From IMG/VR virus record IMGVR_UViG_3300032180_000014, positions 1 through 46,807 of that record: a DNA stretch of 46,807 nucleotides. One strand, given 5' to 3'. Both the position numbers and the translations under genes were made by a program. Positions 9,778-29,256 of this stretch are shown here, in pieces. Under the pieces are notes generated by a model, which worked only from the letters and a program-made list of their open reading frames with translations, was not told where the DNA came from and made no database searches. The stretch comes from a virus. Numbering within the stretch: the first letter of the stretch is position 1; every line of letters begins with the position of its first letter.

Positions 9778-9779
9778 CC

Positions 9780-11469: not shown

Positions 11470-11475
11470 GCATGA

Positions 11476-12636
11476 ATGCCGCTAACCTTTGGCCAGATCG
11501 CGGCTATCGCAAGAGAGGCGGCGCATAGTCCTGGTAAGATCCAGCAATCGTATGATCTTCTGAACGCGATCCTGTCGGATGCGTGCCAGGAGCGCGATTA
11601 TGCCGAGGCCCGTGGACAGTACCTGTTCAATTTTGCGCCGCAGCAAATCTTTGGTGCCGGTGGGACAACGTCGGTAACTTCGGGCTCGCTCTGGGGGTCG
11701 ATGGTCTGGGGTGGGAATATATGGGGAGGCGCCGACACTTCGGTAACCGCACCAGGAGTGTGGCCCGGCATACAATTCGGCTCCGGCCCTTACGCGATGC
11801 CGGTCGACTACTTGCGGCTTTCCGGCTCGTCCGGTTCGCATGGCGCACAGCGCTCATTCATCTGGTGGTTGAACGGCGTGCCTTATCCGGTTATCCCGGT
11901 CGACCTTGCCGAATTCGACATGCAGGTGCAACAAACCGGGCTGCAAAGCTATGTCTGGCTTGGCTCTACCGACATGTCGGCCCCGGTCGATGATCGGTAT
12001 CTTCTGCAGACCTTTGGTGACACGGAAGCTGGCAGTACGGCGCTCAAAAATGTGCTCTCGACCGAGCGGCTGATCGGCGGGGGTATTCTCGGCGTTGGCG
12101 GGCAAGGCATTCGCCCTGGGACTGTTCTTCTCGAGATCGTGACGCCGGGTGCTGTGATTGGCACGGGCGGCGGTGTCGTTGGCACGGGTGGCGGCGATGT
12201 GATCGGCACCGGCCCTGCGGTTGGTCAGCTCACCTTGTCACAGCCGGCGGTGGCGACGATCCCTGGTGCTTCGTTGATCTTTGGCTATGCCCCGGTGATC
12301 TTTGTCTATCCGCCTCCGGTTTCCTCGCTGATAGCGATGATCCGCTACCAGCGTCAGATGCCTCCGATCGTCGATCCGACACGGTATCCCTGGTTGCACA
12401 ATGACCGGTATCTGATCAAGGCTCTGACCGGGCGACTTTGTGCGCTGAATGACGACAGCCGGGCGGATGTCCTGAATGCCGGCCCGGACACACCCGGCAG
12501 TGCCGAGCATGAGCTGACCAATTACCTCATCATGAAAGATGACGAGCAGTCGCATCCCAAGCAAATGACGCTCGACCGTCGTACCTTTGGTCGCCGCATT
12601 TCGAACCTTGATATAACCAAGCGGGTGGGCTGGTAA
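11476..12636 (+). CDS. head-tail connector / tail tube-like protein with WG motif
   Basis: A 386-residue protein starting at ATG 11476. The N-terminal LTFGQIAAIAREAAHSPGKI and YAEARGQYLFNF and the C-terminal NDRYLIKALTGRLCALNDDS resemble gp4/gp11-type podovirus connector proteins. Inserted after residue 68 is a WG-rich stretch, SLWGSMVWGGNIWGG, then a large Gly/Val-rich region with IGTGGGVVGTGGGDVIGTG. The same WG pattern recurs three times in the next protein, so the two probably interact or share a module. The stop overlaps the next ATG by one base. Confidence 0.62.
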   Translation: MPLTFGQIAAIAREAAHSPGKIQQSYDLLNAILSDACQERDYAEARGQYLFNFAPQQIFGAGGTTSVTSGSLWGSMVWGGNIWGGADTSVTAPGVWPGIQFGSGPYAMPVDYLRLSGSSGSHGAQRSFIWWLNGVPYPVIPVDLAEFDMQVQQTGLQSYVWLGSTDMSAPVDDRYLLQTFGDTEAGSTALKNVLSTERLIGGGILGVGGQGIRPGTVLLEIVTPGAVIGTGGGVVGTGGGDVIGTGPAVGQLTLSQPAVATIPGASLIFGYAPVIFVYPPPVSSLIAMIRYQRQMPPIVDPTRYPWLHNDRYLIKALTGRLCALNDDSRADVLNAGPDTPGSAEHELTNYLIMKDDEQSHPKQMTLDRRTFGRRISNLDITKRVGW

Positions 12637-14999
12637 TGCCGCTCCGCAATGCTACCGCCCTGACCTTTCGCCCCAAGGGGGTGACCGACGCGGTAGATGC
12701 GACCGATGCTGCTGCGGGGTCGCTATCGGCTGGGGCCGATCTGATCCCGTCGATGCATACCCGCAACGTTTGGGTGCCACGCCCCGCGGCCTATCAGTTG
12801 TCCGCCACTCCAGTGACCGGAGAGCTGCTAAAGACCATCGGATCAAAGGTTTACGGGTTTACCCCGTCATCCCGGTTTATCGGTCACTCCGAGCCCTTTG
12901 CTCTGGATGAGGCGACGCAGCTGCCGATCCCGATAGCCGGGATCACCGAGGCGAACACGCCAATCACCGCACCAGTGATGGGGGACTGGACGCCGCCGAC
13001 GTTTGCCGCGGTCGGTGCCTATTTGCTCTTCACCCATCCCGGATTTCACCTGCCAAACGCTTTTGGTTGGCTGGATCAGACCGGGTTTACCGACACCGCG
13101 ACCGGGACAACCGGGTTTGGTCATGTTTCCGGGTTCTGGGGGTTTATGGGATGGGGCTCGGGGATCTGGGGTTCACCCTCGGCGGGTGGTGGCAATGTTA
13201 TCGCCAATCTCAGCAAGAATGTGCTGCTCGCCGGCTGGCGGCCTGGCCTTCTGATCACCGACAGCTCTGGCGTCATTCCTGTTGATACACGCATCGACGC
13301 GATATCGGCAGATGGCCTCTCGATCCTCCTGACCAAATCGGCTGTCGGCAGCGTTGTCGGCGATACGCTGACCGTGTTTGGTGGGACGCCGGCGTTTCCG
13401 TTGTGGTCGGCTGGCAACACCAACCAGAACCCGCTTCCTGCGGTTCCGACGGCGGTCAGCCAGTTTAATGGCCGAGCGTTCTTTGCGGTTGGGAGTGCCA
13501 CACCCTATTCTGACGCTCTCGATCCGCTGCAGCGCACTAATGCCAACCAGGTACTGACCTACGACAACGGGCTTGATGTCACCGCGTTTGGAACGATTCC
13601 ATTTCAGACGACTGCGGGCGGCATCATCCAGTCGCTGCTGGCCTTTCAGGGCGACGCGGCGATCCAGCAGATAACCGGCGACCAGGCAACAGGTAACCTG
13701 GCGAAGAACCTCTTATCCGAGATCGGCACGCTAGCGCCCAACGCCATCGTCTCAACCCCCGAGGGGGTAGTATTTATCGCTCCGGACGGACTACGAGTCG
13801 TCAACCAGACCGGGGTGGTCAGTCCGCCGATCGGGGCCAACGGTGATGGGGTGGCGCTGCCCTTCGTCAACGCGATCTTCCCGTCACGGATGTGTGCCGC
13901 TTACAACGAAGACGTTGTCCGTATCTCGGCTACTTACAACGACTCGCTTGGCGGATCGGTGATCAGCCAGGAGGTTTCGGCGGAGTTCTGGTATCACATC
14001 AAGCTGAAAGCGTGGAGTTGCCCGCATTCGTTTCCGGCAGCATTGATCGCCTCGCTTGACGGCCCACGCACCCGCCACGGGCACATCACGTTTCCGCTCG
14101 ACCCGAATGCCAAGGGTCTTTGGTTCTCCAACACTCGCCCGATGATCGACTCGGCCTATACCGAGAATGGCAGGTCTCTGCGGTGGCTCTTCAAGACCAG
14201 CCTGCTCCCTGACAACGAGCAGATGTTCATGAACGGGATGAACGAGACCACGGTAATGATCTCGCTTCCGGTAGGAGTTGCTGCAGACGTAGCCTTTGTC
14301 AATGAAACCGGTACTTTGCTGGATAGCGTCAAGATTGCGGGCTTCAACCCGCAGAGTGGTTTCTGGGGGGCGATGCTCTGGGGTTCCGGACGCTGGGGTG
14401 GGAATGCAGTTCCGGCGGGCCTCTGGGGCACGATGATTTGGGGGCAGAGTGTCTGGGGTGCAGGTGTCGGGGGCGCTACGCTCGCGCAGCGACTGATCCC
14501 GTGGGATAGGGAGCTGGTGTTCAAGCAGGGGCAGTTTCTGATCTCCGGGCCGAGTTCGCCGCAGATCGCGATCGGCAACCTCTATATGCGCTATCAGATC
14601 ACCGGCTACACGCTGGAAGATCCGGGTCCCTTTGTCGGACAGCCGGTCGAGTTTCCGTTTCCGCCGATCCTCTTCCCGCAACCCCCTGTCGTTGGCCCTC
14701 AGGGGCCGTCTGGTCCTCCCGGTCCTACAGGGCCCGTTGGCCCCCCTGGCCCCGCCGGTGCCGGGGGTATCGGAACGGTGGTCGAGTTGGGGTTAGGGCA
14801 GGCTTACCAATTGCCTGCAGCTACCAGTACAGGGCAGGTTTTTACAGTTATCGCCAGCGCGTTGGCTAGTGCCAGCACACCAAATATTGTTTCAGCCCAA
14901 TCCGGTGTAACCATAAATGGATCTCCGACATTCTCTCTCCACTACGGTAATGCTGCTATCTCTGTTTGGTGGAATGGTACTCAGTGGAGGATCTTCTAA
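12636..14999 (+). CDS. large tail protein (tail hub/nozzle-like) with WG motifs and collagen-like repeat
   Basis: A 787-residue protein starting at ATG 12636 in a TAATG overlap. It is beta-rich and lies where podoviruses encode the tubular tail or stabilisation protein. WG motifs occur at 13131-13175, 14358-14402 and 14418-14463, each of the form (F/L)WG-x-M-x-WG-x3-WG. Residues about 687-708 are a collagen-like Gly-X-Y run (GPQGPSGPPGPTGPVGPPGP), followed by a small beta domain ending in WWNGTQWRIF. Such C-terminal modules often attach fibres. The last 83 bases are also read in another frame by the next gene. Confidence 0.68.
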   Translation: MPLRNATALTFRPKGVTDAVDATDAAAGSLSAGADLIPSMHTRNVWVPRPAAYQLSATPVTGELLKTIGSKVYGFTPSSRFIGHSEPFALDEATQLPIPIAGITEANTPITAPVMGDWTPPTFAAVGAYLLFTHPGFHLPNAFGWLDQTGFTDTATGTTGFGHVSGFWGFMGWGSGIWGSPSAGGGNVIANLSKNVLLAGWRPGLLITDSSGVIPVDTRIDAISADGLSILLTKSAVGSVVGDTLTVFGGTPAFPLWSAGNTNQNPLPAVPTAVSQFNGRAFFAVGSATPYSDALDPLQRTNANQVLTYDNGLDVTAFGTIPFQTTAGGIIQSLLAFQGDAAIQQITGDQATGNLAKNLLSEIGTLAPNAIVSTPEGVVFIAPDGLRVVNQTGVVSPPIGANGDGVALPFVNAIFPSRMCAAYNEDVVRISATYNDSLGGSVISQEVSAEFWYHIKLKAWSCPHSFPAALIASLDGPRTRHGHITFPLDPNAKGLWFSNTRPMIDSAYTENGRSLRWLFKTSLLPDNEQMFMNGMNETTVMISLPVGVAADVAFVNETGTLLDSVKIAGFNPQSGFWGAMLWGSGRWGGNAVPAGLWGTMIWGQSVWGAGVGGATLAQRLIPWDRELVFKQGQFLISGPSSPQIAIGNLYMRYQITGYTLEDPGPFVGQPVEFPFPPILFPQPPVVGPQGPSGPPGPTGPVGPPGPAGAGGIGTVVELGLGQAYQLPAATSTGQVFTVIASALASASTPNIVSAQSGVTINGSPTFSLHYGNAAISVWWNGTQWRIF

Positions 15000-15231
15000 T
15001 GCGGAAGGGCCTCTCGCTTGCGATCCGGCGGAAGACCCGACCGTGTGCATGCTCAAGGTTGAGCGCAACAACGCAATGGATGAGTTGGCGATGGCCCAAG
15101 GGTCCGTTATGCGGATGCTTGGAAAGGAGAAAGACCGTGCTGAGTACTGGAAGAAGTGGGTCGATGGCGACCTGGAGAAAGCTGGTTGGTGGGGCGGTTT
15201 GTGGCGCGATCTTATCGGCAAGCGCCACTAG
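14917..15231 (+). CDS. small exported coiled-coil protein, overlapping both neighbours
   Basis: A 104-residue frame from ATG 14917 (14950 is an alternative). It has a hydrophobic N-terminus like a signal peptide (TTVMLLSLFGGMVLSGG, then SSNA) and a helical body, CMLKVERNNAMDELAMAQGSVM, with WWGGLWRDLIGKRH at the end. It overlaps the previous gene by 83 bases and the next by 68. The stretch 15000-15163 has no other gene, which supports it. N-terminal export signal plus coiled coil recalls spanin or tail-assembly peptides, but no family is recognised. Confidence 0.5.
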   Translation: MDLRHSLSTTVMLLSLFGGMVLSGGSSNAEGPLACDPAEDPTVCMLKVERNNAMDELAMAQGSVMRMLGKEKDRAEYWKKWVDGDLEKAGWWGGLWRDLIGKRH

Positions 15232-15973
15232 TTGGGCGGCCTATACCGGTACCCCGCCACTGCTCGTGGTAGATGGCGGCACGGGGGCCGCAACCTTTAC
15301 CGCCCACGGCGTTATCCTCGGCGAGGGCACCGCCGCGCTTGGCGTAACCGCGGTCGGCACTACCGGTATTCCGCTGATCGGGCAAACCGGCGCTGATCCG
15401 GTATTTGGTACTGCGTTGGTGGCCGGTGGTGGAACGGGGCTGGCGACCCTGACCGCGAACAGCGTTCTGGTGGGCGCAGGCACATCGGCGATCCATATGA
15501 TTGGCACCTCGTCGACCGCGGACAGCAGCTTGCATTGGGGTGCGGCTGGCGCTGATCCAGGTCTGCTGGCCTTTCCGAATTGCGCTGACAGCGGCGGCAA
15601 CCACCTCAACTATACGACTGCGGCGCATACGCTGACGTGCGGCACCACAAGTGGAGCGACTGTTATCCCGACCGTTGCAACTGCTACCGGCGCGACGCCG
15701 ATCGCGATTACGGCAACAAATTTGCTGACGACCATCATTTCGATGGCGACGCCCACTGCCTCGACGATCAATCTGCCGACCGCGGTGCAAACCGCCGGGT
15801 TCCGCTTATGCGTCAAGGATGGGACGACAAATTTCGCAACAAACAATGCCACCGTAAAGAGCCCGACATCCGGAACCATAGATGGAGTTGCGGGGGCAAC
15901 TGGTGTGGTGATGAACCAGGCTCGTCAGGAGCTGTGTTTTATCTCGGATGCGACGAATTGGTTCATCGAGTAA
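15164..15973 (+). CDS. exported tail-fibre-like protein
   Basis: A 269-residue protein. The frame is open further upstream, but ATG 15164 is preferred because it begins a Sec signal peptide (MATWRKLVGGAVCGAIL, SASATSWAA) and has GGAAGAAG upstream. The mature part begins with repeats typical of phage tail fibres (VVDGGTGAATFTAHGVILGE, then TGADPVFGTALVAGGGTG). The C-terminal part is a compact beta domain with paired cysteines ending FISDATNWFIE. It is the first of a series of tail-module proteins with export signals. Confidence 0.68.
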   Translation: MATWRKLVGGAVCGAILSASATSWAAYTGTPPLLVVDGGTGAATFTAHGVILGEGTAALGVTAVGTTGIPLIGQTGADPVFGTALVAGGGTGLATLTANSVLVGAGTSAIHMIGTSSTADSSLHWGAAGADPGLLAFPNCADSGGNHLNYTTAAHTLTCGTTSGATVIPTVATATGATPIAITATNLLTTIISMATPTASTINLPTAVQTAGFRLCVKDGTTNFATNNATVKSPTSGTIDGVAGATGVVMNQARQELCFISDATNWFIE

Positions 15974-15992
15974 AAAAGGAAGGCATCTTGAC

Positions 15993-16649
15993 GTGCTTCG
16001 ATGCGCAGCGATTGCTGTCGGCCTCTTGATGTATGCGCAGACTGCAAAGGCCGGGTTTAATGAGCCGGTCGGGTGTACCGCACTTCCGGCTCTTACCGGG
16101 GTTGTCACTACCCCGTCTGGGAGTTGCGCGACCGCAGCAGGCACGGCTGGGTTGGTGAAGGTCAGCACTCAAACGGTGTCTGCCGGGGCGAGCATCGCAT
16201 TTACCGGCCTGGCCACATACGTAAATTATCAATTGGAATGCACGGCAGTATTCCCAGCCACTCCTTCTACGGGTCTCTTTCTACAAGTAGGAGAGGGCGG
16301 AACCCCTACATGGGAGACATCCAGTTATAGTTATACCAGGATGATTATTATTTCTAACAGTGCCACTGTTGTCCCAGACGCCCAGTCCGGTGCTTCTGGT
16401 CTTAATCTGGCTTCGTCTGTCGGGGCCGTGGCTACGAGCTGGACTGGATCATTTACAATCCACAATGCAACGTCGACTAATACAGTGAAGCATATGACAG
16501 GTCATGGGGCGCTTTTGTCTACGGATCAGTATAATGTCGTATATAGTGGCGCGTATATCGGCGACACCAATGCGATAACGGCCATTAGACTTATAGCTGC
16601 CTCCGGCAATATTTCGGGTGTCTGTACATTGTATGGGTTTACACCATGA
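15993..16649 (+). CDS. exported beta-rich tail-module protein
   Basis: A 218-residue protein. GTG 15993 is chosen because GGAAGG lies nine bases upstream and it gives a clean signal peptide (MLRCAAIAVGLLMYAQTAKA). A start at 15948 would add an unlikely charged leader overlapping the previous gene. The mature part is Ser/Thr/Gly-rich beta sequence with scattered cysteines and ends SGVCTLYGFTP. It lies between two fibre/spike genes and is probably a fibre accessory; the fold is not recognised. Confidence 0.6.
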   Translation: MLRCAAIAVGLLMYAQTAKAGFNEPVGCTALPALTGVVTTPSGSCATAAGTAGLVKVSTQTVSAGASIAFTGLATYVNYQLECTAVFPATPSTGLFLQVGEGGTPTWETSSYSYTRMIIISNSATVVPDAQSGASGLNLASSVGAVATSWTGSFTIHNATSTNTVKHMTGHGALLSTDQYNVVYSGAYIGDTNAITAIRLIAASGNISGVCTLYGFTP

Positions 16650-16678
16650 GTCCTCTGAAGTTGAGATAGGAAACACCA

Positions 16679-17593
16679 ATGGCCTCGCTCAATCCACCGC
16701 TGACCGTTCCGTTTATCTTCACCAACGGTACGGTTGCGGATGCAACACAGGTCAATGCCGACTTCTCGGCGCTGGCTGGCGCGATCAATACCAATGTGCG
16801 CACGGTCTTGTCTTCTGCGACAACCTTTTACGTAGCGACGACCGGCTCGGACACGACAGGCAGCGGACTTACCCCAACGACGCCCGCGGCGACGATTCAG
16901 TTCATCATTTCTCTGATCGAGAACAGCTATGACTTAAACGGCCAGACTGTAACGATCCAGCTCGCCAACGGCGCCTATACGCAATCGACGGTGATTTCCG
17001 GCATTTTGCTTGGTCAGAATGCGCCAGGCAATTTGCAGATTACCGGCAATATGGCGACCCCCTCTCTGGTGACGATAGAGGGCAATCCATGTTTCAGCGT
17101 GACTAATGGGGGTGCCTGTCAGATCCAGGGGATACTCATGACGAGCAGCATATCGCAGTGCATCATCTCGCAAGAGTCGGGCAACGTCGCGATCACTACG
17201 GTATCCTTTGGCAATGTTGTGGGGAGCCATTTGTTGGCGGTTCGTACCGGAACGATCAAGACTTTGGGAAATTATACGATCGTCGGAGGTGGTTCGTCGC
17301 ATATGAAGGCAAATGGTGGGCAAATCTATATCGAGGCTCCTCCTGGCAATTACACAGGTGTTCCTGCGGGGGTTCCCACCGTTACGTTGACCGGCACGCC
17401 GGCGTTTATCCAGGCGTTCGCCGTTTCTACCCATACCGGAAACATCGTGTCGCTCGCCACGTATTCGGGTGCTGCGACCGGCACACGCTATGATGTGGAA
17501 GCCAACGGAGTCATCGAAACCCAGGGCGCCGGAGCCAACTATTTCCCCGGAAATGCCGCGGGTGTGGTCCTTACGGGGGGTCAGTACATATGA
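16679..17593 (+). CDS. tail spike-like protein with right-handed beta-helix
   Basis: A 304-residue protein from ATG 16679 with AGGAAA upstream. The N-terminus (VPFIFTNGTVADATQVNADF) is a common phage fibre head-binding motif. The rest (FYVATTGSDTTGSGLTPTTP, then IQLANGAYTQSTVISGIL) is the opening of a pectate-lyase-type beta-helix. It has no signal peptide, unlike most of its neighbours, so it is a good candidate for the true virion-bound fibre or spike. A catalytic site cannot be named. Confidence 0.72.
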   Translation: MASLNPPLTVPFIFTNGTVADATQVNADFSALAGAINTNVRTVLSSATTFYVATTGSDTTGSGLTPTTPAATIQFIISLIENSYDLNGQTVTIQLANGAYTQSTVISGILLGQNAPGNLQITGNMATPSLVTIEGNPCFSVTNGGACQIQGILMTSSISQCIISQESGNVAITTVSFGNVVGSHLLAVRTGTIKTLGNYTIVGGGSSHMKANGGQIYIEAPPGNYTGVPAGVPTVTLTGTPAFIQAFAVSTHTGNIVSLATYSGAATGTRYDVEANGVIETQGAGANYFPGNAAGVVLTGGQYI

Positions 17594-17880
17594 TCATCAA
17601 GGCAATCACCGCCGGTGGCACTAACGCTATCGTGAGTGCTTCTCGCGTACGCAACTATCTCGGCATCTTCAATCAGAGCATAACTGCGACGGTCTACATC
17701 GCTTTTGACACGGCGGCGGTGGCGGCGGCGACGGCCGGGCAGCTGACGCTTGGCCCGCTCGGTAGCACAGGTGTTCCCGCTTCGTTTGTCTGGGATGGCG
17801 GCAACAGCCAGAATGTGCCGACGCAGGCGATCAACATGATCGCGAGTGCAGGGGCCACAACCGTGACGATAATTGAATGA
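17590..17880 (+). CDS. hypothetical small tail-module protein
   Basis: A 96-residue protein from ATG 17590 in an ATGA overlap with the spike. It is compact and beta-rich (IKAITAGGTNAIVSASRVRN, YIAFDTAAVAAATAGQLTLG, FVWDGGNSQNVPTQAINMIA). No signal peptide is seen. It resembles small trimer-tip or fibre-capping proteins in character, but no family is recognised. Confidence 0.65.
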   Translation: MIIKAITAGGTNAIVSASRVRNYLGIFNQSITATVYIAFDTAAVAAATAGQLTLGPLGSTGVPASFVWDGGNSQNVPTQAINMIASAGATTVTIIE

Positions 17881-18608
17881 AACGGCTCTTTCCTGTCGCG
17901 TTCCTGGCTACGGCGGCTCTTCTGCTCCTCGCCGGTGGGCTTGACGCTGCGAGCAAGAAAAAGGTGCCCGCCAAGCCAAAGGAAATGCAGCTTGCTCAGG
18001 CGGCCCCGGTTCTTACGGTCGGCAATCCCAACATCATCTATCTTGCCAACCTTGCTCAGGTCGGGATCACCCGCGACAGCGACACGACATTCTGGTGCGA
18101 TACGCCGTCAGGCTGCGGTCCCGGTGTCGATCTGAAGCGCATCACCGCTCCGCAGATCTCGAGCTATGTGCTCAGCAAGATCATCGCCTCTCCGCCGCTC
18201 TCATTTAATGGTTCAGCACTTCAGCTTGGCTATGACAGCACTTTGGCGGTGATCGGTGGGCAGCTGCATGTCCAGGGTGGAAGTGGCACTGGGTTCCCGT
18301 TCGTCCTCGGCGGCACCTCGATTAACGCCGGCTCGACCAATACGATGATCTCGAACCTGACGTTGGGCAGCCCGACCCTGGCCGGCAACGTGGCGGGCTC
18401 GCCGAATTACACCGGCGTTCCGTTATTCACTGCGCTCAACACCGGTACTCCGGTCTTTTGCCTGGCACTCGACTCCGGCAACAACCTGATCAAGGTGCCG
18501 GCGGTCAGTGGCTCATGTGCGGGGGGCGGAGGGGGTGGAAGTTTCCTTCTTGCAGACACCGGTAGTCATCTTCTGGTCGATACCGGCGTTTCTTTCCTAG
18601 TCCAATGA
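17877..18608 (+). CDS. exported tail-fibre-like protein
   Basis: A 243-residue protein from ATG 17877, overlapping the previous stop. The Sec signal peptide (MKRLFPVAFLATAALLLLAG) is followed by a Lys-rich linker (SKKKVPAKPKEMQL). The body has fibre-like text (ADT/DTG repeats, TSINAGSTNTMISNLTLGSP). The C-terminus is a Gly run and short repeats, LLADTGSHLLVDTGVSFLVQ, a beta-repeat tip also seen in a related form at 20359-20565. Confidence 0.66.
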   Translation: MKRLFPVAFLATAALLLLAGGLDAASKKKVPAKPKEMQLAQAAPVLTVGNPNIIYLANLAQVGITRDSDTTFWCDTPSGCGPGVDLKRITAPQISSYVLSKIIASPPLSFNGSALQLGYDSTLAVIGGQLHVQGGSGTGFPFVLGGTSINAGSTNTMISNLTLGSPTLAGNVAGSPNYTGVPLFTALNTGTPVFCLALDSGNNLIKVPAVSGSCAGGGGGGSFLLADTGSHLLVDTGVSFLVQ

Positions 18609-20380
18609 GGATCCTGGGTATGAGAAAGCTTTTCGCTATCGCCTTCCTCACCGGACTGGGGGCATCGCAGGCCTGGGCGGATAGTACGATTAATGCTTTG
18701 GCTGCGGGCGGGGCGCTTAGCGGCGGTGAGCTGATCCCGATGTTCCAATCTGCCAACCCCGCGAAGACGACGACGCCAAGCGCTATCGGCACCTATCTGG
18801 TCGGGACAGGTAATTTTGTCCCAACGACGAGGACGGTCAGCACGACTTCGCCACTCGCCGGCGGGGGCTCGTTGTCAGGAAACCTGACGCTTAGCATCGG
18901 CAATATCCCGGTCACCAACTTGAATTCCGGGACAGGGGCCAGCGGGACCACCTTCTGGCGGGGTGACGGGACTTGGGCTGTCCCGGCCGGTGGCGGTAGT
19001 GGGCTCAGCGGGATGACGGCGGGCTATATCCCGGTCGCAGCTACGGCCAGCACCGTAACGTCAAGCATCCTGCAATCGACCTGGTTATTCTCGGCCGCCG
19101 GCAACAGTACGCTGGCAGGCAGTGGGGTGCGCTGTTTGCACGCCGATAACACCGGGGCTATCAGCATAGCGTCGGGCGATTGCGCCACCGGCGGCAGCGG
19201 AAGTGTCACGAGCATAACCCAGGGTACGGGGATGTCTTTCTCCGTAAATCCCATTACGACAACGGGCACGATAAACCTGGGCAACACCGCGGTCACTCCA
19301 GGCTCCTATACTAATACCAACCTCACGGTTACCGCTGATGGTCGCATTACCGCTGCTGCAAATGGTAGTGGCGGTGGTGGTACCGCGGTGCTGAGCTACG
19401 GCACGATCGCCGGCGGTCCCACCGCGTACACGATCGCCTCGCCAACCCCGGCGGTGGCCTCGAACGTTGCCAACTATTCTGTGCTGGCCAGCATCCCGAC
19501 GACTGTCACAAAGAACACGGGAGCGGCAACCTTGGCGGTCGGAACCGCCGCTGCCTTGCCTTTGCAAGTAAATACCAGCGGCGGCGGCCTGGCCTTTGCC
19601 GGCGGCGAGTTTGTCGGGAATGATACAGGTGGCGGCGAAACCCAGGTCCTGCTCAAACTTAATTCCGGGGGAACGGCGTGGGTGATGGTGACGCGCCCCG
19701 GCGGCGGGACTACGGTTAATCCTAGCGCACACGCGATCACTCAAAGCGAATGGGCTAACAGTCAGGTCTTCCTCTGCACATCGGCCTGTTCTCTGACGAT
19801 GCCCAACCTTGCGACCGCCACGCTAAGCTCGAACGCGGGTCCGACTATCGTGACTATCGGCGCTATCGCGACGATCACTTCGCTGGGGACCGATGGCGTC
19901 AACAACGGGCAGGTCGGCGGTATCGGTACGGCCGGTGCTTTCTATGTTCCGGCCGACATTACGGCCCCGATGTTCACCTCAGGAGCGGCCGGAGCCGGGG
20001 CTTACTCGATCCCGACCGGGCCGGTCCAGTATTTTCCGTTCAGTTGGTTGCCGGGGATGGATCTCTCGACAGCGACTGCGGGCATCCGGGTCGGGCGCTT
20101 TGCGACCCCCCGCATCCTTTACGCGATCCGTTGTGAAAATGACATCGTTGCAGGCGCAGCGCAAACGATGGTCTTCAGACAGCAGACCGCAAGCGGTTTG
20201 ATTAGCGCTGGCACCCTGGTTAACTCCGGCTCTTTTAACATGAATGCCTCGGCTGGGACTGAAGTGAGCGTTACGCTTACTGCTACTCCGCTTCTCATTC
20301 CAACAGACTACTGGGTCGGCGCGGTAGTTACTGGTAGCGCCACAGCAGGGAGCGGGGCTTGCCAATTTACGTACAGATAG
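18605..20380 (+). CDS. large exported tail-fibre-like protein
   Basis: A 591-residue protein from ATG 18605, overlapping the previous stop. The signal peptide is MRKLFAIAFLTGLGASQAWA after a short leader; an in-frame ATG at 18620 could be used. The body has fibre repeats (LSIGNIPVTNLNSGTGASGT, TFWRGDGTWAVP) and NLGNTAVTPGSYTNTNLTVT, a motif common in phage tail fibres. The C-terminal 170 residues form a compact beta domain ending SGACQFTYR. The fibre repeats together with an export signal are unusual. Confidence 0.7.
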   Translation: MRILGMRKLFAIAFLTGLGASQAWADSTINALAAGGALSGGELIPMFQSANPAKTTTPSAIGTYLVGTGNFVPTTRTVSTTSPLAGGGSLSGNLTLSIGNIPVTNLNSGTGASGTTFWRGDGTWAVPAGGGSGLSGMTAGYIPVAATASTVTSSILQSTWLFSAAGNSTLAGSGVRCLHADNTGAISIASGDCATGGSGSVTSITQGTGMSFSVNPITTTGTINLGNTAVTPGSYTNTNLTVTADGRITAAANGSGGGGTAVLSYGTIAGGPTAYTIASPTPAVASNVANYSVLASIPTTVTKNTGAATLAVGTAAALPLQVNTSGGGLAFAGGEFVGNDTGGGETQVLLKLNSGGTAWVMVTRPGGGTTVNPSAHAITQSEWANSQVFLCTSACSLTMPNLATATLSSNAGPTIVTIGAIATITSLGTDGVNNGQVGGIGTAGAFYVPADITAPMFTSGAAGAGAYSIPTGPVQYFPFSWLPGMDLSTATAGIRVGRFATPRILYAIRCENDIVAGAAQTMVFRQQTASGLISAGTLVNSGSFNMNASAGTEVSVTLTATPLLIPTDYWVGAVVTGSATAGSGACQFTYR

Positions 20381-20565
20381 CCGCGATCATCCTGGTACTC
20401 GGCCTCGCCATCGCCGGCGATGCAGAGGGCCGCTCTGCCGGTCGCACCCTGGGCCGTGCGGGTGGTGCTGCACCAGGTGGTGGCGGCGGCGGGCAGCTTA
20501 CTAATGACGGCGGCACACTGGTCCTAACCAATGATGGCGGCACTTTGAGGTTAACAGCCTTATGA
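20359..20565 (+). CDS. small exported Gly-rich protein with repeat tail
   Basis: A 68-residue frame from TTG 20359, overlapping the previous gene by 22 bases and the next start by four (TTATGAG). A hydrophobic N-terminus (VQIAAIILVLGLAIAGDA) reads as a signal peptide. It is followed by a Gly-rich linker and the tandem repeat LTNDGGTLVLTNDGGTLRLT. The repeat tail parallels the C-terminus of the 17877 protein, suggesting a stand-alone fibre-tip module. Confidence 0.55.
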   Translation: MPIYVQIAAIILVLGLAIAGDAEGRSAGRTLGRAGGAAPGGGGGGQLTNDGGTLVLTNDGGTLRLTAL

Positions 20566-22385
20566 GACGTTTTCTCCTATGCCTCGCAGTCTTGCTTGTC
20601 ACGGCAAGTGTGGCGAATGCGCAGACGACCCCATTCCCGACGTTTCTTAATGGGCAGGGAGCGGCCGGCGCACAAACGGGCACTGATCAGATCCCGGTTA
20701 TACAGGGGGGGGTAACAAAGAAAGCCCCTCCCTCGTATTTCAATACCCCGGGTACGATTGTTCTTCAGCCGATCGCTGGGGATAATGCTGCTGCTATAGC
20801 AGCAGCACTAACAGCTTCTCAGGTAGTTTTGCTATCCCCTGGTTATTATCAGGTTTGCAGCCAAATTGATGTTCCGAGGTACCGAACGTTATTCGGTTTG
20901 GATGGCGTACGCCAGGGCATCGGAAATCAAGCTCCAAGCTATCCCTTTAACATGCAACCTACTGTGGTTGGCTCAAATGGTTGTCCGAACGGCGGGAATG
21001 GCACCTTCGCGGCGACCGATCAGGGCTTTTTCCATCTTCATGATAATATAAATCTCTCAGGTTTTGCGATCCAAGGCCAACGCCAAATTGGCGGTCATTT
21101 CGCGATCAATTGCGTCAATGCTGAGAATGCAGCAACTATCGTCATCTACGGGATGACCTTGGTTGACTGCTACTATGGTGTAGATCGACGGTCGACAGCA
21201 ACTCCAGGAGATACTGGTTCTATTTCTCAAACTGCTGTTATTTCTTTCAATGCTATCCCCTATGTTGAACAAGCCGGCATCATTTGCGGAACCCGTGATG
21301 GTGGGAATGGTTGTGCTGATGAGCGGTACACGGATAATTGGATTGATGTGGATTTTGTCGACGGCATCTTCATAGACGGCGGCGTGGAGTTCCAGATTGA
21401 GAATAACCGTATTGAGGATGGCGCTTCTGCTGTTCACCTGCAGAACGCCCAATTTGGCATCATCAGCGGTAACTTAATCCGTAGGCAAAGCGCGTTGAAT
21501 ATCACGAGTACTGGCGGTGGAGGGACTTCCAATATCTCTTTTATAGGGAACAAGATGTCGGCGAGTGAACCCGCAAGTGGGCAAGCGGCCATTAATATCG
21601 GGGATTATTGCCAGAGCATGCTCTTCGCGAACAACGTATTCGGATACAACTATGTCGGAGCGTTTTCAGCGGACGCCGGTACCACTCTTGAAGGCTCGAT
21701 TATCACGAACAACCTCTACGCCGCCAACCCCGTAGCCCCCTCGATTAATGGTGATACGTCTTCCGCTATTGTAAATGCAATCCCTGGGGTGGTCCCAACC
21801 TTTAGGGGTAATGCTGCTGATGCAGGCTCAGATCCTTTGGGCTTTGCTGGAGGGGGCGATGTTAGTCTTAGAAGCTGGACGGCTACCGCCTCAACACTTG
21901 CTACACGTTCAGTTATAGACCCCACAGGTTTTCAAATGGGGGCGCGGATAACTGAGGATGCGACAACCGCCACGCACTTAATTACTTCCCCCGGCACTTA
22001 TGCGCTTATCTCCAGCAAAACCTATACGATGATGGCGCTATTCGCTCCTGGCTCTTCAGGAACTCGTAATGTAGGACTTGCCGTGAATGATGGGACGAAC
22101 TTTATTAGAGCAACATTTAATCCGTCTACTTGCGCATTTGTGGCAACGGCCGTGGCCGGGACCGGGGCAGCGGTTGGAACCCCTTCAGCGGTTTCCATTG
22201 GTGGCGGGTGGTGCCGAGGAGCCGTCTCGTTTACGGGTATAAGTACGGGGGCTTCCAGGCTGATGTATTTGATGTCCGGTTCTACCTCTTCCTATGCGGG
22301 AGATGGCACCTCTAATGTGGTCGTCTATGGAATAGCAACCGTTGATAGTCAGGTGCCTCCTGGGGCAGTTGCCTGGCGGCCATAG
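20562..22385 (+). CDS. exported tail-spike-like beta-helix protein
   Basis: A 607-residue protein from ATG 20562. The Sec signal is MRRFLLCLAVLLVTASVANA. Next come PFPTFLNGQGAAG and GTDQIPVIQGGVTKKAP, motifs common at the start of phage spikes, then a parallel beta-helix (residues about 110-390; INLSGFAIQGQ, GIFIDGG, FQIENNRIEDGASAVHLQNA). The C-terminal 160 residues look like a carbohydrate-binding jelly roll (GTYALISSKTYTMMALFAPG). It is lower in G+C than its neighbours, consistent with exchange of receptor-binding genes. Probably a polysaccharide-binding or -cleaving protein. Confidence 0.72.
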   Translation: MRRFLLCLAVLLVTASVANAQTTPFPTFLNGQGAAGAQTGTDQIPVIQGGVTKKAPPSYFNTPGTIVLQPIAGDNAAAIAAALTASQVVLLSPGYYQVCSQIDVPRYRTLFGLDGVRQGIGNQAPSYPFNMQPTVVGSNGCPNGGNGTFAATDQGFFHLHDNINLSGFAIQGQRQIGGHFAINCVNAENAATIVIYGMTLVDCYYGVDRRSTATPGDTGSISQTAVISFNAIPYVEQAGIICGTRDGGNGCADERYTDNWIDVDFVDGIFIDGGVEFQIENNRIEDGASAVHLQNAQFGIISGNLIRRQSALNITSTGGGGTSNISFIGNKMSASEPASGQAAINIGDYCQSMLFANNVFGYNYVGAFSADAGTTLEGSIITNNLYAANPVAPSINGDTSSAIVNAIPGVVPTFRGNAADAGSDPLGFAGGGDVSLRSWTATASTLATRSVIDPTGFQMGARITEDATTATHLITSPGTYALISSKTYTMMALFAPGSSGTRNVGLAVNDGTNFIRATFNPSTCAFVATAVAGTGAAVGTPSAVSIGGGWCRGAVSFTGISTGASRLMYLMSGSTSSYAGDGTSNVVVYGIATVDSQVPPGAVAWRP

Positions 22386-22403
22386 ATCCGAGAAGGTAGG
22401 GTT

Positions 22404-23315
22404 ATGAAGCGCTTTGTTCTCGGTGCTCTAGCCGCTCTGGTTATCGGTGCCGGGCTGGGCGCTGGTCTTGACAGGTCTCGCGCCGGTATACTGTTCAAGC
22501 CGACCACCTCGGGCGGTGGGGGGTGTTCCCAGGCGACCGCCTATCTCGCTCGCGTCAGCGGATACGACGGGGCTCATATAACCGCGGCGACAAACACGAT
22601 CTGCGCACTCGTCACCGATGGCGTCTGGAACATGTGGGATGGCCTTTATTTCCTGGCTACCGACACGGAGGCGAATGCGGAAGTGAATCTTAAATCGAGC
22701 AGTTTTACGCTCGTCAAGCACGGTTCGCCGACCTTCGTTGCCAACTCTGGCTCTACCGGGATTGATGCGAACCCTTCGACTGCATACTACGATACTCAGT
22801 TCAACCCGGCTACGGCGAGCACCCCACAGTTCGTGCAGAATAGCGCTACTCTGATGGCGTGGAGCATGACGAGTGTGCAATCGACAGTTCAAGGGTGGAT
22901 ACTCGGAGCGGAAACTTCAGTCGGAGCATCATCATCTGAACTGGAAATATGGTCCTCTGCAGGTAATGACACTTTTGACGTAAATGTCGCACTCGGTTCT
23001 TCTGTAGTATTTACGCCTGCCGGAACAGCCTCCGGGAGTTGGATAGCTACCCGAACCGGGGCCAGCCTTACCAAAGCCTACCATAATGGTACGACGCTGA
23101 CTCTTACCAATCCTACTCAGGCATCGCTTGCTCCAATCAACGCCAACTTCTTTGTCCTGGCAACCAATGCGGGAAGTGTCATCGCCGGCGGCCCCAACCA
23201 GATTGGTATCTTTGGCTTTGGCAGCATGTTTGTCGATGATGCTCATGCACTCACGTTTCACAACGACATTTGCACCAACTGGCTGACTCCGATCCACGGA
23301 TCATGCCCACTATAA
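22404..23315 (+). CDS. exported LamG/concanavalin-like protein
   Basis: A 303-residue protein from ATG 22404 with GAGAAGG upstream. The signal peptide is MKRFVLGALAALVIGAGLGA, followed by a Gly-rich linker. The body (YLARVSGYDGAHITAATNTI, WNMWDGLYFLATDTEANAEV, TASGSWIATRTGASLTKAYH) has the beta-sandwich character of concanavalin/LamG-like domains in phage fibres. It ends with cysteines in NDICTNWLTPIHGSCPL. It probably binds carbohydrate. Confidence 0.65.
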   Translation: MKRFVLGALAALVIGAGLGAGLDRSRAGILFKPTTSGGGGCSQATAYLARVSGYDGAHITAATNTICALVTDGVWNMWDGLYFLATDTEANAEVNLKSSSFTLVKHGSPTFVANSGSTGIDANPSTAYYDTQFNPATASTPQFVQNSATLMAWSMTSVQSTVQGWILGAETSVGASSSELEIWSSAGNDTFDVNVALGSSVVFTPAGTASGSWIATRTGASLTKAYHNGTTLTLTNPTQASLAPINANFFVLATNAGSVIAGGPNQIGIFGFGSMFVDDAHALTFHNDICTNWLTPIHGSCPL

Positions 23316-24985
23316 AATCTCTGCTGATAGCCGTCCTCGTTTTCTGGGGGCTGCTCGGCGCAGCGCACACCCAGGTTGCCGTCCGCAACTTTGACGGCGG
23401 AGGCACGTCACGTGCCAATCAGATCAGCCGGATGGATGTTAACGGCAATCACCTCCGGGGGGTGGATGCCGGGAAGTTCGTGCAGTTCGCCGGCGATCCT
23501 CACATCTACTGGTATGTGCCCACAGAGGATGTCGGGTTTCTTTATACGACAGGGGTGGGGACATTTGGTGGGTTCGAGGTCTATTCGTCCGTAGGAACGG
23601 ATGTTTCGCAATGGGTCCCTGTAGGGGAGGGGCCCGGCGGGGTGCTCTTTGACGCATCTTCTACTCCCTGGCAAACGCTTTGTTCAGGCCCGGTCAGCGG
23701 GACCGTCTACCCTTACTGTTATTCGCCGCTCCCGGTCTTTCGACCCGGCACAAATGACTATGTGGTCTGGTTTGGCAACAATCTGAGTTTCTACACGTTG
23801 CGGTGTGCCCGGCCGACCGGGGGTTGCGACACAACGCCCGTGGAGGCAGCCTCATGTACCGGCACGAACCGTTATTTACCGACCCCCTTTATCGATAACG
23901 ATGGCACCGGGTACATCACCTTTACGGTTCACGGTGTCACTCAAATTCAGCAGCTTAACGCCAGCTATACGGACTGCGTGGGGCCGAACGTGGCTGTTGA
24001 TGCATCCGGGCCGGTGGTTGAGACGCCATCCATGTTCCGGGCTGGCTCAACATATTTTATTACGGCAGGGACAAATTGCGCCTACTGTGGCGTAGGGTCT
24101 ACCGCTCTTTATTGGACGGCCCCGACTTCTTCAACGCCGGTCAGTGCTACGTGGTCCACTTCGACAGGATATGATAGCGGCTCGAGCTCCTGTCATGGTC
24201 AGCCTTATAACGTAGCTCACCTGTTCATTAATGCAACCGAGGTATTTCTGCTCCAAATTAATGAATACGACCCCGGAAATGGCAGCAATGCTAATACTGG
24301 CGCGGCGAACGCAGCGCAGGGCACTGTCGCAATAGTACCTCTGACTGTCAGTGGCAGCACGATCTCGCCGTTCACCTGTACGGCGACTGTTTCTATTCCT
24401 GGAGCTGTTCCGCAGCCTCTCCCGGGTCTTTCCGGAACCGATCAATCTACGGAGAACAATCCTTCGAACAGCGTCTGCGACATCGGTGGGGCAAACCAGA
24501 CTTATCAGACTTTCACAGCCGGAAGATCCGGGGCCTTGACCCAGGTATGGGTGGAAACAGGCCAGGGTAATAACGATTGTCTTGGGGCGTTTTTTGGGGG
24601 AACCTGCCCAAACCCGGTAGGGGTCAATGCTGATCTTACGGTTAATGTGGTCAATGACAGCGCCGGCACGCCGGGGGCTGGTTTGGCTACGGCCACGGTG
24701 CTGCGCTCTTCTGTCAGGTGGGCTCCGAACCGGACGGTGATACCTCTGTCTCCGGCGCCGACTGTGAGTGCGGGATCGGTGTACGGTATTCGGCTGTCGA
24801 GCCCGAGTGCTACGTTGGGATGCTGGAATAAGCAAGCCGGTCATCTTGTCGCTTATACTGGCGGGCAGGAGTACATCAGCACCAACAGCGGTAGCACCTG
24901 GACCCCCGTGGCAAGCACCGACATCGCGTTTTCCACCGTCGTAGGCATCCCCGGGGGTGGACGCAGGATTGGTCATGGTCGATGA
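23303..24985 (+). CDS. exported beta-propeller protein, glycoside hydrolase family 43-like
   Basis: A 560-residue protein. ATG 23303, overlapping the end of the previous gene, is preferred over 23270 because it starts the signal peptide (MPTIKSLLIAVLVFWGLLGA). Residues about 45-320 have GH43-like blade text: DVNGNHLRGVDAGKFVQFAG, IYWYVPTEDVGF, FGGFEVYSSVGTDVSQWVPV, RYLPTPFIDNDGTGYITF, ETPSMFRAGSTYFITAG. The last 160 residues are a separate beta domain. The usual catalytic acids cannot be confirmed by eye. A role in cleaving host surface polysaccharide is inferred. Confidence 0.65.
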   Translation: MPTIKSLLIAVLVFWGLLGAAHTQVAVRNFDGGGTSRANQISRMDVNGNHLRGVDAGKFVQFAGDPHIYWYVPTEDVGFLYTTGVGTFGGFEVYSSVGTDVSQWVPVGEGPGGVLFDASSTPWQTLCSGPVSGTVYPYCYSPLPVFRPGTNDYVVWFGNNLSFYTLRCARPTGGCDTTPVEAASCTGTNRYLPTPFIDNDGTGYITFTVHGVTQIQQLNASYTDCVGPNVAVDASGPVVETPSMFRAGSTYFITAGTNCAYCGVGSTALYWTAPTSSTPVSATWSTSTGYDSGSSSCHGQPYNVAHLFINATEVFLLQINEYDPGNGSNANTGAANAAQGTVAIVPLTVSGSTISPFTCTATVSIPGAVPQPLPGLSGTDQSTENNPSNSVCDIGGANQTYQTFTAGRSGALTQVWVETGQGNNDCLGAFFGGTCPNPVGVNADLTVNVVNDSAGTPGAGLATATVLRSSVRWAPNRTVIPLSPAPTVSAGSVYGIRLSSPSATLGCWNKQAGHLVAYTGGQEYISTNSGSTWTPVASTDIAFSTVVGIPGGGRRIGHGR

Positions 24986-27780
24986 AACTCACGCGACGCA
25001 ACCTGGGTCGGCTGTTTCTTGGTGCCGCCGCGAGCTTGTCGTCGGTATCGGCTCTGGCTCGGAATATCAGCCGTGGGGCCGCCCGACCAGGTGGGGCCGC
25101 GGCGGGCACGTTTCAGCCTAGCGTTGCTGGGTCACTATTCCCAGGGCTGCCTTTTATTTCCAGTGAGAACGCGTTAAATGTGCAGGTTTCTCCGGTCGCA
25201 AACAGCTCATCAGAAGTAAGCGTCATCTCGGGAACGGTAACACTAACTGCTAATTACGAAGTTTTTGCGCCCGGAGCCGGATCGGTAATTGAGTTTCTGT
25301 TGGATAACGCACTGATACCCGGTTCCCGAGTGACTGGGCCGCCGTTTTCCATCTCATGGAATACGACCACCACTACTGACGGGACCCACGTGGTCAATGT
25401 CCGTCTTATAGACTCTCCCACCGATGATTTTTATGGAACCAAGACGACAGGGCGCCAGGTGATGGTCATCAATGGGAGCCCCGCGGCAATTTCTCCAAGT
25501 GTCGCCCAAACGGTGGTGACCACTACTACCGGTGCTGGTGGGAACGTGGCGTTTACTTCGCCCAGCATGGCTGAATTTGTCCCTTATCCGGGCTCTCCGG
25601 CGTCGGTCTTTAATACAACGTACCCTACCACGTATCCGACCATCCCCCCGGCTACTTCTGATGCCCGTTATATGGGGGCTAATGCGACACTGTTGCGAAA
25701 CCAGTCTAATTTCTATCGCGAACCAGCCAACGAGTATGTCTGGAGTCTTTACGGCTGGACGCCGAGCTTTGAGACCACACAGAATGGTGGAGTTTTCGTC
25801 CAACACTGGACCCCGCAACGGGGCTCCACCACATTGGTCGACTCTTACGACATCATTATTCGGCAGAACGCGTGGGACGGCGGCCGGCTCGACAATCAGA
25901 TCAGCCCCTATATCGAGTGGGTTGAACACCCCGATGGGTTGGGGTTTGTCGGAGCTGAGGTTAACGGACGCATCTCGAAGTACACCTGGGATGGTGCGGT
26001 AACAACACTGTTTGGCTTTAAGCGGGACCGATCCGTGCTCAATATCGATAGCACGGATTTGACGCTGGCAGAAGGTAGTATCACCCGCACGCATGTTGGC
26101 ACCTGCATCGGGTTTGGTGATCTCGGCGGGTGCAATGATTTATGCTTTGACCCGACGAACTCCAACCTGCTGTATGTGTGCTGTACGATCGAGACGAGCA
26201 GCTTTATCGCGGTGGTCAATCTGAGTGGCGGCACGATAGCCGGGATCCCGGCTCTGTCTGCCAAGATATACGCGGGGATACCGGGTACGCTCAGCTACGT
26301 TGACAATGTTACAGCACTCAGCGCTACATTCAACAACCCGATCTCTATTTGCATGGTGACCACCGCCGGCGGTCATGATCCCGTCGGGACCATGTATGTC
26401 GCGGATCAGTTCAATAACGCAATTCGCAAGATTGCCCAGACCTCACCGGGGATAGCCGGAACGGTAACGACCCTGGTCGGTGGCACTTTGCGGTCGAACC
26501 CAGCTGATTTCCCGACCTACTCAGCCGGTTTTGCGACCTATTGCCCTACCACCGTGACCCCCTATACAAATGCATATATAATACAACCAGCTTTTATTCG
26601 CATTACCAGCAACATGGGCATAGCATGTGCCGAACAGTGGAATAATAACATCCGCTATATTGACCTGTCAGGCAATACAGTGACAGCCCCAACTTCGGCG
26701 TTTCAGGGAAATCCTTCTATCGCTGACGTTCAGGCATTCAAGGTACTTGATTGTGACTATAAAGGCACCTGTGGGCCAGTTGACGATGTGGTGATGTGTG
26801 TTGCTAATAGTGGCGGCGGTAGCGCTAACGTCACGTTTTGGCGATTTGGAACCGACGGATTTAGCGGCCTCATGAACAATGGTGGCCGCTACCTGCCGCA
26901 AGGGCAGCTGCCTCTACCATTTGAAGGCCTGGGGCATTATCCCTGGAGTTTTGCATTTTCGCGACAACATGGGAGATTTATTTCGGGCGGTATTGGCAAT
27001 CCAAATCCAGCAAGTTGTAGAATTGCTACTACTACAGACTTCACAGCCAGCGCTGCCATTAATCAAGATCCGCAGCAGGATGGGTTTGCTTGTTGGATGT
27101 ATGGAACCGCATCATTACCGGTCGACGGGAGCGGGAACCGTCAGCCGATTTACCCGTACAACTCGCGCCCCAGCTTTTTTACTCTGGGCGGGCCCGCCGG
27201 TGTCACCCATCAAGGGTCCTGGCCTGGGAAAAATACGTTTGACGATATCTCGGCCGCTTACCCCTCGGATGGCAATTATGATTTGATGCCCGGTGATCCA
27301 GCGAATGCGGGGACGCTGACGGCGTACATACAAGCAGGGCTCGGCGGGAACTATCCGCGTCCGGAATTTACCGGCCGGATAGTGCGCAACCTGATTTATT
27401 GGATACGAACAACCGCCACCGCCGGTTTTTGGCCAACACCGGTGGCCTTGGGTCCGACCAATCCGGATGTGACGGCACCGGTTATCACAATCACCGGCGT
27501 TACCCACAATACCGGGGCTAACACGTTGACAATCAATTGGAATACCGACAAGCCGACTTTTGGTGTCATATGCTGCGGATCGCCGACGCAGCAAGGTTTT
27601 ACGTGCCCCTATCCCTTGTGGCAACTCGAAGCATATAGCTACCCCGCTGGGTACCTGACGACAGGGCACACTGCCACTATCACCGGGTTGCCGGCAGGTG
27701 TCACGCCTATCCACTACTCGGTGCAGGCCAAGGATATTGCGGGGAACGTCGCGCATACCCTTGATGGAACAGTTGTTTAG
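24982..27780 (+). CDS. large exported (Tat-type) protein with Ig-like domain and NHL-type beta-propeller
   Basis: A 932-residue protein from ATG 24982 in an ATGA overlap. The N-terminus MKLTRRNLGRLFLGAAASLS carries a twin-arginine signal. Residues about 60-160 form an Ig-like domain (VSVISGTVTLTANYE, TTDGTHVVNVRLIDSP). The centre has NHL/SMP-like propeller repeats (FNNPISICMVTT, GTMYVADQFNNAIRKIAQ, WNNNIRYIDLSGNTV). The C-terminus is a fibronectin-like domain (HYSVQAKDIAGNVAHTLDG). Tat export of a folded protein from a phage tail module is unexpected. The function is unassigned. Confidence 0.68.
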   Translation: MKLTRRNLGRLFLGAAASLSSVSALARNISRGAARPGGAAAGTFQPSVAGSLFPGLPFISSENALNVQVSPVANSSSEVSVISGTVTLTANYEVFAPGAGSVIEFLLDNALIPGSRVTGPPFSISWNTTTTTDGTHVVNVRLIDSPTDDFYGTKTTGRQVMVINGSPAAISPSVAQTVVTTTTGAGGNVAFTSPSMAEFVPYPGSPASVFNTTYPTTYPTIPPATSDARYMGANATLLRNQSNFYREPANEYVWSLYGWTPSFETTQNGGVFVQHWTPQRGSTTLVDSYDIIIRQNAWDGGRLDNQISPYIEWVEHPDGLGFVGAEVNGRISKYTWDGAVTTLFGFKRDRSVLNIDSTDLTLAEGSITRTHVGTCIGFGDLGGCNDLCFDPTNSNLLYVCCTIETSSFIAVVNLSGGTIAGIPALSAKIYAGIPGTLSYVDNVTALSATFNNPISICMVTTAGGHDPVGTMYVADQFNNAIRKIAQTSPGIAGTVTTLVGGTLRSNPADFPTYSAGFATYCPTTVTPYTNAYIIQPAFIRITSNMGIACAEQWNNNIRYIDLSGNTVTAPTSAFQGNPSIADVQAFKVLDCDYKGTCGPVDDVVMCVANSGGGSANVTFWRFGTDGFSGLMNNGGRYLPQGQLPLPFEGLGHYPWSFAFSRQHGRFISGGIGNPNPASCRIATTTDFTASAAINQDPQQDGFACWMYGTASLPVDGSGNRQPIYPYNSRPSFFTLGGPAGVTHQGSWPGKNTFDDISAAYPSDGNYDLMPGDPANAGTLTAYIQAGLGGNYPRPEFTGRIVRNLIYWIRTTATAGFWPTPVALGPTNPDVTAPVITITGVTHNTGANTLTINWNTDKPTFGVICCGSPTQQGFTCPYPLWQLEAYSYPAGYLTTGHTATITGLPAGVTPIHYSVQAKDIAGNVAHTLDGTVV

Positions 27781-27844: not shown

Positions 27845-27883
27845 ATGTCTGGTTTGATACGGGAAGTTGCCGATGTCCGATAG
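27845..27883 (+). CDS. 12-residue leader-like reading frame
   Basis: ATG 27845 has the strongest ribosome-binding site nearby (GGAGG at 27835-27839, five-base spacing) and encodes only MSGLIREVADVR. It ends at TAG 27881 after overlapping the next start by 11 bases. A short frame with a good start signal overlapping the next gene suggests translational coupling or attenuation of the membrane-protein cluster. Confidence 0.35.
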   Translation: MSGLIREVADVR

Positions 27884-28202
27884 TGGCAATGGCACCAAGA
27901 TCTTCAATATCGGAAATGTGGTTGCGATCCTGGTTGTCGCCGGCATGGCGGCGGGTGGCTATGCGACGCTGAGCCGGGTGCAAGGGGACACCGTGAGAGC
28001 GGTTGATGATCTTTACAAGATTGTGTACGAGTTGAAGAGTGATACGCGTGATTGGGAAACCCGTGAGACTGGCTATGATGCCGAAATCAGGGCGCGAACG
28101 GAGGCGGTTGCGGCCGAAAACCGTGATACCTTTCGACGTCTCACCGATCGCTTAAACGACTTGGCTGTACGTGTCGGAGCGTTGGCTAACGGAACCAAGT
28201 AG
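27873..28202 (+). CDS. membrane-anchored coiled-coil protein (lysis-cluster type)
   Basis: A 109-residue protein from ATG 27873, with GGGAAG about eight bases upstream; TTG 27867 is less likely. One membrane segment (IGNVVAILVVAGMAAGGYAT) is followed by a charged coiled coil (VDDLYKIVYELKSDTRDWET through RRLTDRLNDLAVRVGAL). The layout matches small phage proteins of the hemolysin XhlA or inner-membrane-spanin kind. Nearby membrane and lipoprotein genes make a lysis role plausible but unproven. Confidence 0.6.
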   Translation: MSDSGNGTKIFNIGNVVAILVVAGMAAGGYATLSRVQGDTVRAVDDLYKIVYELKSDTRDWETRETGYDAEIRARTEAVAAENRDTFRRLTDRLNDLAVRVGALANGTK

Positions 28203-28251
28203 GTAGTTTACGCATCTCGAAACTGTCACGCAGATGTGCTAGGATAGGAGC

Positions 28252-28659: not shown

Positions 28660-28674
28660 TCAAAGGATTAGATC

Positions 28675-29253: not shown

Positions 29254-29256
29254 GCG

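Follow-up and report, generated by a model that had tools for sequence, protein, structure and literature searches.

Predicted tail fibres and spikes of a tailed phage from an IMG/VR virus record, like related fibres of other phages, begin with well-formed predicted signal peptides; in the fibre family surveyed below these are placed exactly in front of the domain at which signal-less fibres start, and the proteins combine membership of tail-fibre families with a signature of disulfide bonding. Real export of these proteins and their folding with disulfides are well supported by the sequence evidence, and we lean towards the explanation that the fibre and spike products are exported by the host Sec system, cleaved, folded in the periplasm with disulfides and joined to the virions at lysis. 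To our knowledge, production and assembly of the fibres of tailed phages are regarded as wholly cytoplasmic, and no earlier description of signal-bearing tail fibres was found in the open-access literature searched. If true, a widespread class of exported, disulfide-bonded fibres would change the description of virion assembly, would make the host Sec and Dsb factors a part of phage production, and could explain the misfolding of some fibres on cytoplasmic expression; a simple sequence rule, a signal plus an even number of cysteines, would serve for spotting such fibres in metagenomes.

Layout of the window and its fibre region

The window, i.e. the whole 46,807-base virus record IMGVR_UViG_3300032180_000014, has its genes arranged as in a short-tailed phage: a terminase (phrog_38, 1e-50), a portal-like protein and the major head protein (phrog_1357, 3e-31) are followed by further virion genes, a tail protein (12636..14999, + strand), the fibre region, small membrane or lipoprotein genes on its 3' side (27867-29818) and, after these, large internal-virion-like proteins. 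The tail protein, which has no signal peptide and adjoins the fibre slot upstream, served as the anchor for comparing relatives, and the gene order suggests that it is nozzle-like. Its C-terminal extension gives collagen-like matches to tail fibre PHROGs (aa 685-724); the stretch 14618-14999 (+ strand), coding for a collagen-like run of GPP and for additional C-terminal sequence, lies beyond the part shared with the loci L003-L006, whose tail proteins are 37-39% identical to it. Elsewhere in the window, a pair of neighbouring small genes beside the major head protein gene (9147-9458 and 9463-9777, + strand), whose products start almost identically, is apparently a tandem duplication. A gene at 37082-38392 (+ strand) encodes phosphoribosylglycinamide synthetase (PurD-like) domains (2e-8), and a downstream gene of L150 (18892-20217) has a similar start. 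A Phosphoesterase family protein (PF04185, 3e-32) is encoded at 700-1659 (+ strand); if an internal Met is its start, it has an apparent signal peptide, MSFLKKCLWLSVFLLIAVRGQA, and is predicted to be probably exported.

The region 14917-27780 was found to contain 11 credible genes, not twelve as counted in an earlier note on this DNA. Two starts are of note: ATG 15164 was taken for the second gene, and not the long ORF from 14966, and ATG 23303 instead of TTG 23270 for the GH43-like gene; for the gene at 18605 an alternative start at 18620 is equally good. The starts of 17590, 17877, 18605 and 24982 are supported by ATGA overlaps.

Signal peptides were recognised with a home-made scorer, which rewards a positive n-region, a hydrophobic core and small residues at -3/-1, and so itself favours such residues. 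It was calibrated on annotated genes of E. coli K-12, and scores of 7.5 or more were obtained there for 13 of 16 exported, 2 of 64 cytoplasmic and 6 of 26 inner-membrane proteins. Eight of the 11 fibre-region genes score 7.9-11.2 and display the features expected for Sec and signal peptidase I (positive n-region, core of 7-17 residues, small residues at -3/-1). With the weaker case of 14917, nine of the 11 have signal-peptide-like N-termini, eight strong and one probable, where the earlier note had counted at least eight and probably ten. No signal was scored in any of the twelve upstream genes (1759-14999), and the scorer bore out the claim that 16679 and 17590 are signal-less.

The first gene of the region (14917..15231; this and all those that follow are on the + strand) encodes a 104-aa protein with two Cys in the mature part. 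The core and end of its N-terminus, MDLRHSLSTTVMLLSLFGGMVLSGGSSNA^EGPLACDP, are signal-like, and because its n-region carries no net positive charge the signal peptide (14917-15003) is counted only as probable. The fibre-like protein 15164..15973 (signal peptide about 15164-15238, score 9.9, 4 Cys) shows a weak match to a fibre-like protein of L023, beginning just past the signal. It is followed by a phrog_14820-family protein (15948..16649, 1e-9; signal peptide 15948-16052, score 9.6, 4 Cys), by the signal-less fibre 16679..17593, which has a 'PytfTNGT-ADA-QVNaNF' N-terminal domain and no Cys pair, and by a small signal-less protein (17590..17880). Next to these lie the fibre-like protein 17877..18608 (signal peptide about 17877-17948, score 8.8, 4 Cys) and a fibre with the FWRGDGTW motif, 18605..20380 (signal peptide 18605-18679, score 10.4, 6 Cys), whose homologues in L007 (45%), L025 (57% over the N-terminus) and L142 have signals too. 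The spike-like protein 20562..22385 (signal peptide 20562-20621, score 11.2, 9 Cys) matches GTA_spike_fiber with its C-terminus (NF048003, 1.3e-8, just under the cut-off), as well as NosD (0.0014, under the curated cut-off). In the phrog_18498-related protein 22404..23315 (2e-7; signal peptide 22404-22484, score 9.3, 4 Cys), all four Cys are conserved in the L007 homologue at 36% identity. The GH43-like protein 23303..24985 (signal peptide about 23303-23371, score 8.0, 14 Cys) matches GH43 with an E-value of 0.0022 and 17.8 bits, below the Pfam cut-off of 32.2, and the last, 932-aa protein (24982..27780, score 9.2, 16 Cys) has a twin-arginine signal-like N-terminus (24982-25059) and a Big_7-like segment (0.0006, under the curated cut-off).

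The earlier note had read the bodies of these proteins as fibres, spikes, a GH43-like propeller and lectin-like domains, a reading that the family matches support in part: GTA_spike_fiber, phrog_14820 and phrog_18498 are matched, and the matches to GH43, NosD and Big_7 stay under their cut-offs. As to the Tat-type signal it had assigned to 24982, a twin-arginine stretch, TRRNLGRLF, is visible by eye and no Tat model or family was reported at E<=0.1; export via Tat is possible, and the folding before export that this route entails would be a poor fit with the 16 Cys. Twin-arginine signal-like starts are also seen in slot genes of L147 (7839-8324 and 9289-11801). No relatives of 20562 and 24982 were found in the viral-contig scans, and in the fetched loci 20562, 23303 and 24982 have no close relatives, apart from L007, which the C-terminus of 20562 matches weakly; a virion role of these three is therefore suggested mainly by their location. 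Searches of phage records returned no close relatives of the window DNA, of the fibres 18605 and 20562 or of a fibre of L071, and an AlphaFold model of 20562 built with no alignment (pLDDT 34) was too poor for use.

Signal-bearing fibres in relatives and in other phages

Of the relatives initially obtained for the tail protein 12636, L004-L006 (near-identical contigs, counted as one phage) have three signal-bearing fibres in the slot and L003 has none. A profile search with the same protein gave 18 loci, and signal-bearing fibres are found in the slot of nine of the 11 readable distinct phages sharing the tail gene, window included (the window, L004, L140, L143, L146, L147, L148, L149 and L150, as opposed to L003 and L144); outside this count are L141, whose contig stops after a signal-less start, and L145, which stops short of the slot. 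In the window and the relatives alike, the fibre genes come directly after the tail gene. In a mechanical count over the phages sharing the tail gene, 27 of 50 slot genes had signals, as did 2 of the 78 genes that lie upstream (p=7e-12); the former figure is an undercount because some fibres of L140 and L150 escaped the greedy gene caller.

Signal-bearing fibres are not peculiar to the window phage, and the search for homologues in other phages that the earlier note had called for located them both in relatives and in other phage backgrounds. A 69.8-kb contig (L007) has a row of such genes, of which two are homologues of 18605 and 22404; in L054 and L071 they occur on contigs with baseplate-like neighbours. 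They have been also identified in a lambda-like tail module of Nitrobacter sp. Nb-311A (L095), in a Rhizobiales genome (L126) and in the Bradyrhizobium phage isolate ppBdUSDA122-1, where two such genes adjoin a tail protein. In this phage of Bradyrhizobium diazoefficiens USDA 122 (OP596612) the two lie at 5285-7882 and 7918-9366, with MKLQRLL as the intact N-terminus and a predicted mature one near AEQSSYV. Signal-bearing fibres are a minority among fibres overall: about one seventh of 83 motif-bearing fibres in other scored contigs are signal-bearing, a few of these calls looking false, and in several further isolates and records the related fibres have no signal.

Scans of genomes with a two-sequence N-terminal alignment, and searches of four genomes with a model of the N-terminal domain described below, found nothing. 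A genome scan with 18605 returned mostly FWRGDGTW proteins, many of which are bacterial surface proteins; FWRGDGTW repeat proteins with signal peptides (L090-L137) are common in genomes of Bacteroidetes and Patescibacteria and are probably located on the cell surface. The motif was dropped as a sign of phage origin, since many bacterial surface proteins carry it together with signals, and for the same reason a host origin of some of the genes is possible.

The N-terminal domain and the cysteines

Many fibres of the slot start with the domain PytfTNGT-ADA-QVNaNFnal, of which the window copy is the signal-less 16679. A search of viral contigs with six copies of this domain, followed by removal of duplicates, gave 43 distinct copies preceded by a signal peptide, whose hydrophobic core averages 13 residues, and 26 proteins that start directly at the domain; the signal peptide ends at the very point where the signal-less fibres start. 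On the best domain tree, built with the cysteines masked, short and partly unresolved, the signal state changes at least nine times, three of the changes being forced by well-supported branches; the signal-less L183 lies among the signal-bearing L185, L192 and L193. A second signal-bearing gene is found nearby in 25 of 40 loci with a signal-bearing copy versus 5 of 23 (p=0.002; the surveyed sequences are related, so that p-values overstate independence), and owing to this clustering the signals seem to characterise whole phages in addition to individual genes. A second type of fibre, with a 'GPQDPSQ-NtLIqsIN' start domain, also occurs behind signal peptides, often just 3' of the first type (L172 6213-6800, L177 6245-7450, L208 6708-7913, L216 6617-7207, L150 12411-13019).

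The families of the signal-bearing proteins indicate that the predicted exported products are members of conventional tail-fibre families. Phage Tail Collar (PF07484) was found in 11 of the 43 (best 5e-19), one has a gp53-like C-terminus and two match Mtd weakly, and PHROG families of tail fibres and collars dominate the signal-bearing and the signal-less set likewise. Past the N-terminal domain, a profile of the 43 matches two tail fibres of solved structure, PDB 7z47 (3e-8) and PDB 8vbx (4e-6). Recognised fibre domains are thus present in the signal-bearing relatives, while the window's own genes match weakly and have thinner family evidence.

A pair of Cys spaced by 27-28 residues, the first of them 2-6 residues past the predicted cut, is present in 31 of the 43 signal-bearing copies versus none of the 26 signal-less ones. 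The remaining 12 signal-bearing copies have neither Cys and none has a single one, whereas 7 signal-less copies have one and 19 none. A pair of fixed spacing that is all or none, and occurs only with a signal, is the pattern expected of a disulfide formed outside the cytoplasm. Even numbers of Cys, a preference described for exported proteins of Gram-negative bacteria (PMC7678975), were counted in 32 of 36 complete signal-bearing fibres versus 8 of 16 complete signal-less ones (p=0.004), and in 33 of 36 proteins of a second, mostly separate signal-bearing set. Paired and even cysteines, as expected of folding in an oxidising compartment, are therefore found, and this pattern argues that the export is real and that disulfide folding would take place outside the cytoplasm. 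In an independent-pair test on the tree the Cys pair never goes opposite to the signal, the supported pairs being too few for significance. In the window itself, the products of the signal-bearing genes contain 17.5 Cys per 1000 residues (63 of 3608), as compared with 2.7 (16 of 5947) for those of 17 other virion or late genes (p=2e-14); since the density does not clearly separate the signal-bearing and signal-less groups of the surveyed domain family (11.2 versus 9.0 per 1000), the fixed pair and the even counts were used instead.

Proposed export and assembly, and competing explanations

The earlier note had left a choice between proteins that act outside the cell and a signal that is used in tail assembly. 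Real export and disulfide folding are supported by the predicted signals and the cysteines, and the second of the two readings is favoured, as a prediction, because the mature N-terminus is the domain at which signal-less fibres start, on proteins of conventional fibre families. We propose that the fibre and spike products would pass through the host Sec system (24982 possibly through Tat) and have their signals cut off by signal peptidase I, that the mature proteins would then fold in the periplasm, acquiring their disulfides, and that this compartment would store them during the building of capsid and tail in the cytoplasm. Lysis by holin and endolysin would then unite fibres and particles, and the fibres would attach, at or after lysis, through the N-terminal domain that they have in common with signal-less fibres. 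As the capsids of tailed phages are products of the cytoplasm, the simplest route would be to keep the fibres in the periplasm until they attach at lysis; in extracts, particles can be joined by the fibres of several phages, which makes this physically possible. Their presence on virions we infer from the family, the slot and the retained N-terminal domain. In more general terms, we hold at about even chances that this is a second assembly route, in which fibres are made in an oxidising compartment, stabilised by disulfides and kept apart from the capsids until lysis, and which is switched on or off by gain or loss of a signal before the same domain.

The main rival, which we judge unlikely but take seriously, is that the proteins are exported and never join the virion, i.e. 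that they are secreted or periplasmic lectins or depolymerases, derived from fibre domains, which modify the surface of the infected cell in superinfection exclusion, release of progeny or shielding. Nine signal-bearing genes are many for one virion, spike- and GH43-like bodies would fit such roles, related motif proteins with signals are present in bacterial genomes, and a further enzyme of the window, the phosphoesterase 700-1659, is apparently exported as well. On the other hand, the genes sit in the fibre slot beside tail genes across unrelated phage types, the N-terminal domain of ordinary fibres is kept right past the cleavage site, and copies with and without a signal alternate in the tree. 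Moreover, in Gram-negative cells a Sec signal alone brings a protein no further than the periplasm.

It is improbable that the signals are uncleaved anchors holding the fibres on the inner membrane, e.g. as an assembly platform: signals do resemble anchors, and the scorer accepts 6 of the 26 membrane proteins of E. coli, but the cores average 13 residues and are followed by small -3/-1 residues (sites that the scorer itself favours), and the first Cys of the pair comes only 2-6 residues past the predicted cut. We give still less credence to functionless leftovers of recently captured host surface-protein genes, as the sharing of FWRGDGTW and signals by host surface proteins might suggest, for the signals are kept despite divergence (33-57% identity), have been repeatedly gained or lost, are tracked by the Cys pair and cluster in the same phages (25 of 40 versus 5 of 23 loci, p=0.002). 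That they are no signals at all, but hydrophobic head-binding helices of ordinary fibres, which the earlier note had named as the finding that would refute it, or products of wrong start codons, is hardly credible, even with inferred starts and home-made scoring, as the ATGA junctions and the independently annotated isolate ppBdUSDA122-1 support the starts of such genes, signal-less relatives start directly with the following domain, the cores are short with small residues at -3/-1, and the disulfide signature would be left without explanation.

In families, slot and mature start domain, the exported products we favour as virion components are like the known fibres of Caudoviricetes (PF07484, PHROG families, 7z47, 8vbx), from which they differ by having the export signal and the N-terminal Cys pair that those are not known to carry. 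Virion proteins with cleavable signals are known in filamentous phages, whose coat proteins pIII and pVIII are kept at the membrane before assembly. The proteins described here are similarly signal-bearing, with a predicted virion role; however, the assembly of filamentous phages takes place at the membrane and they leave the cell by extrusion, not by lysis, whereas the phages analysed here are tailed, with genes for terminase, portal and capsid. Use of host Sec by late phage proteins is exemplified by the SAR endolysins of phage JG068 (PMC3765740); these and the lipoprotein spanins are, however, lysis proteins with uncleaved or lipoprotein signals, and not fibres. Lysogenic-conversion proteins such as Lom of lambda (PMC12309495) are also signal-bearing and encoded between tail genes, but Lom is an outer-membrane beta-barrel, while the proteins of the fibre slot are fibre-, spike- or lectin-like.
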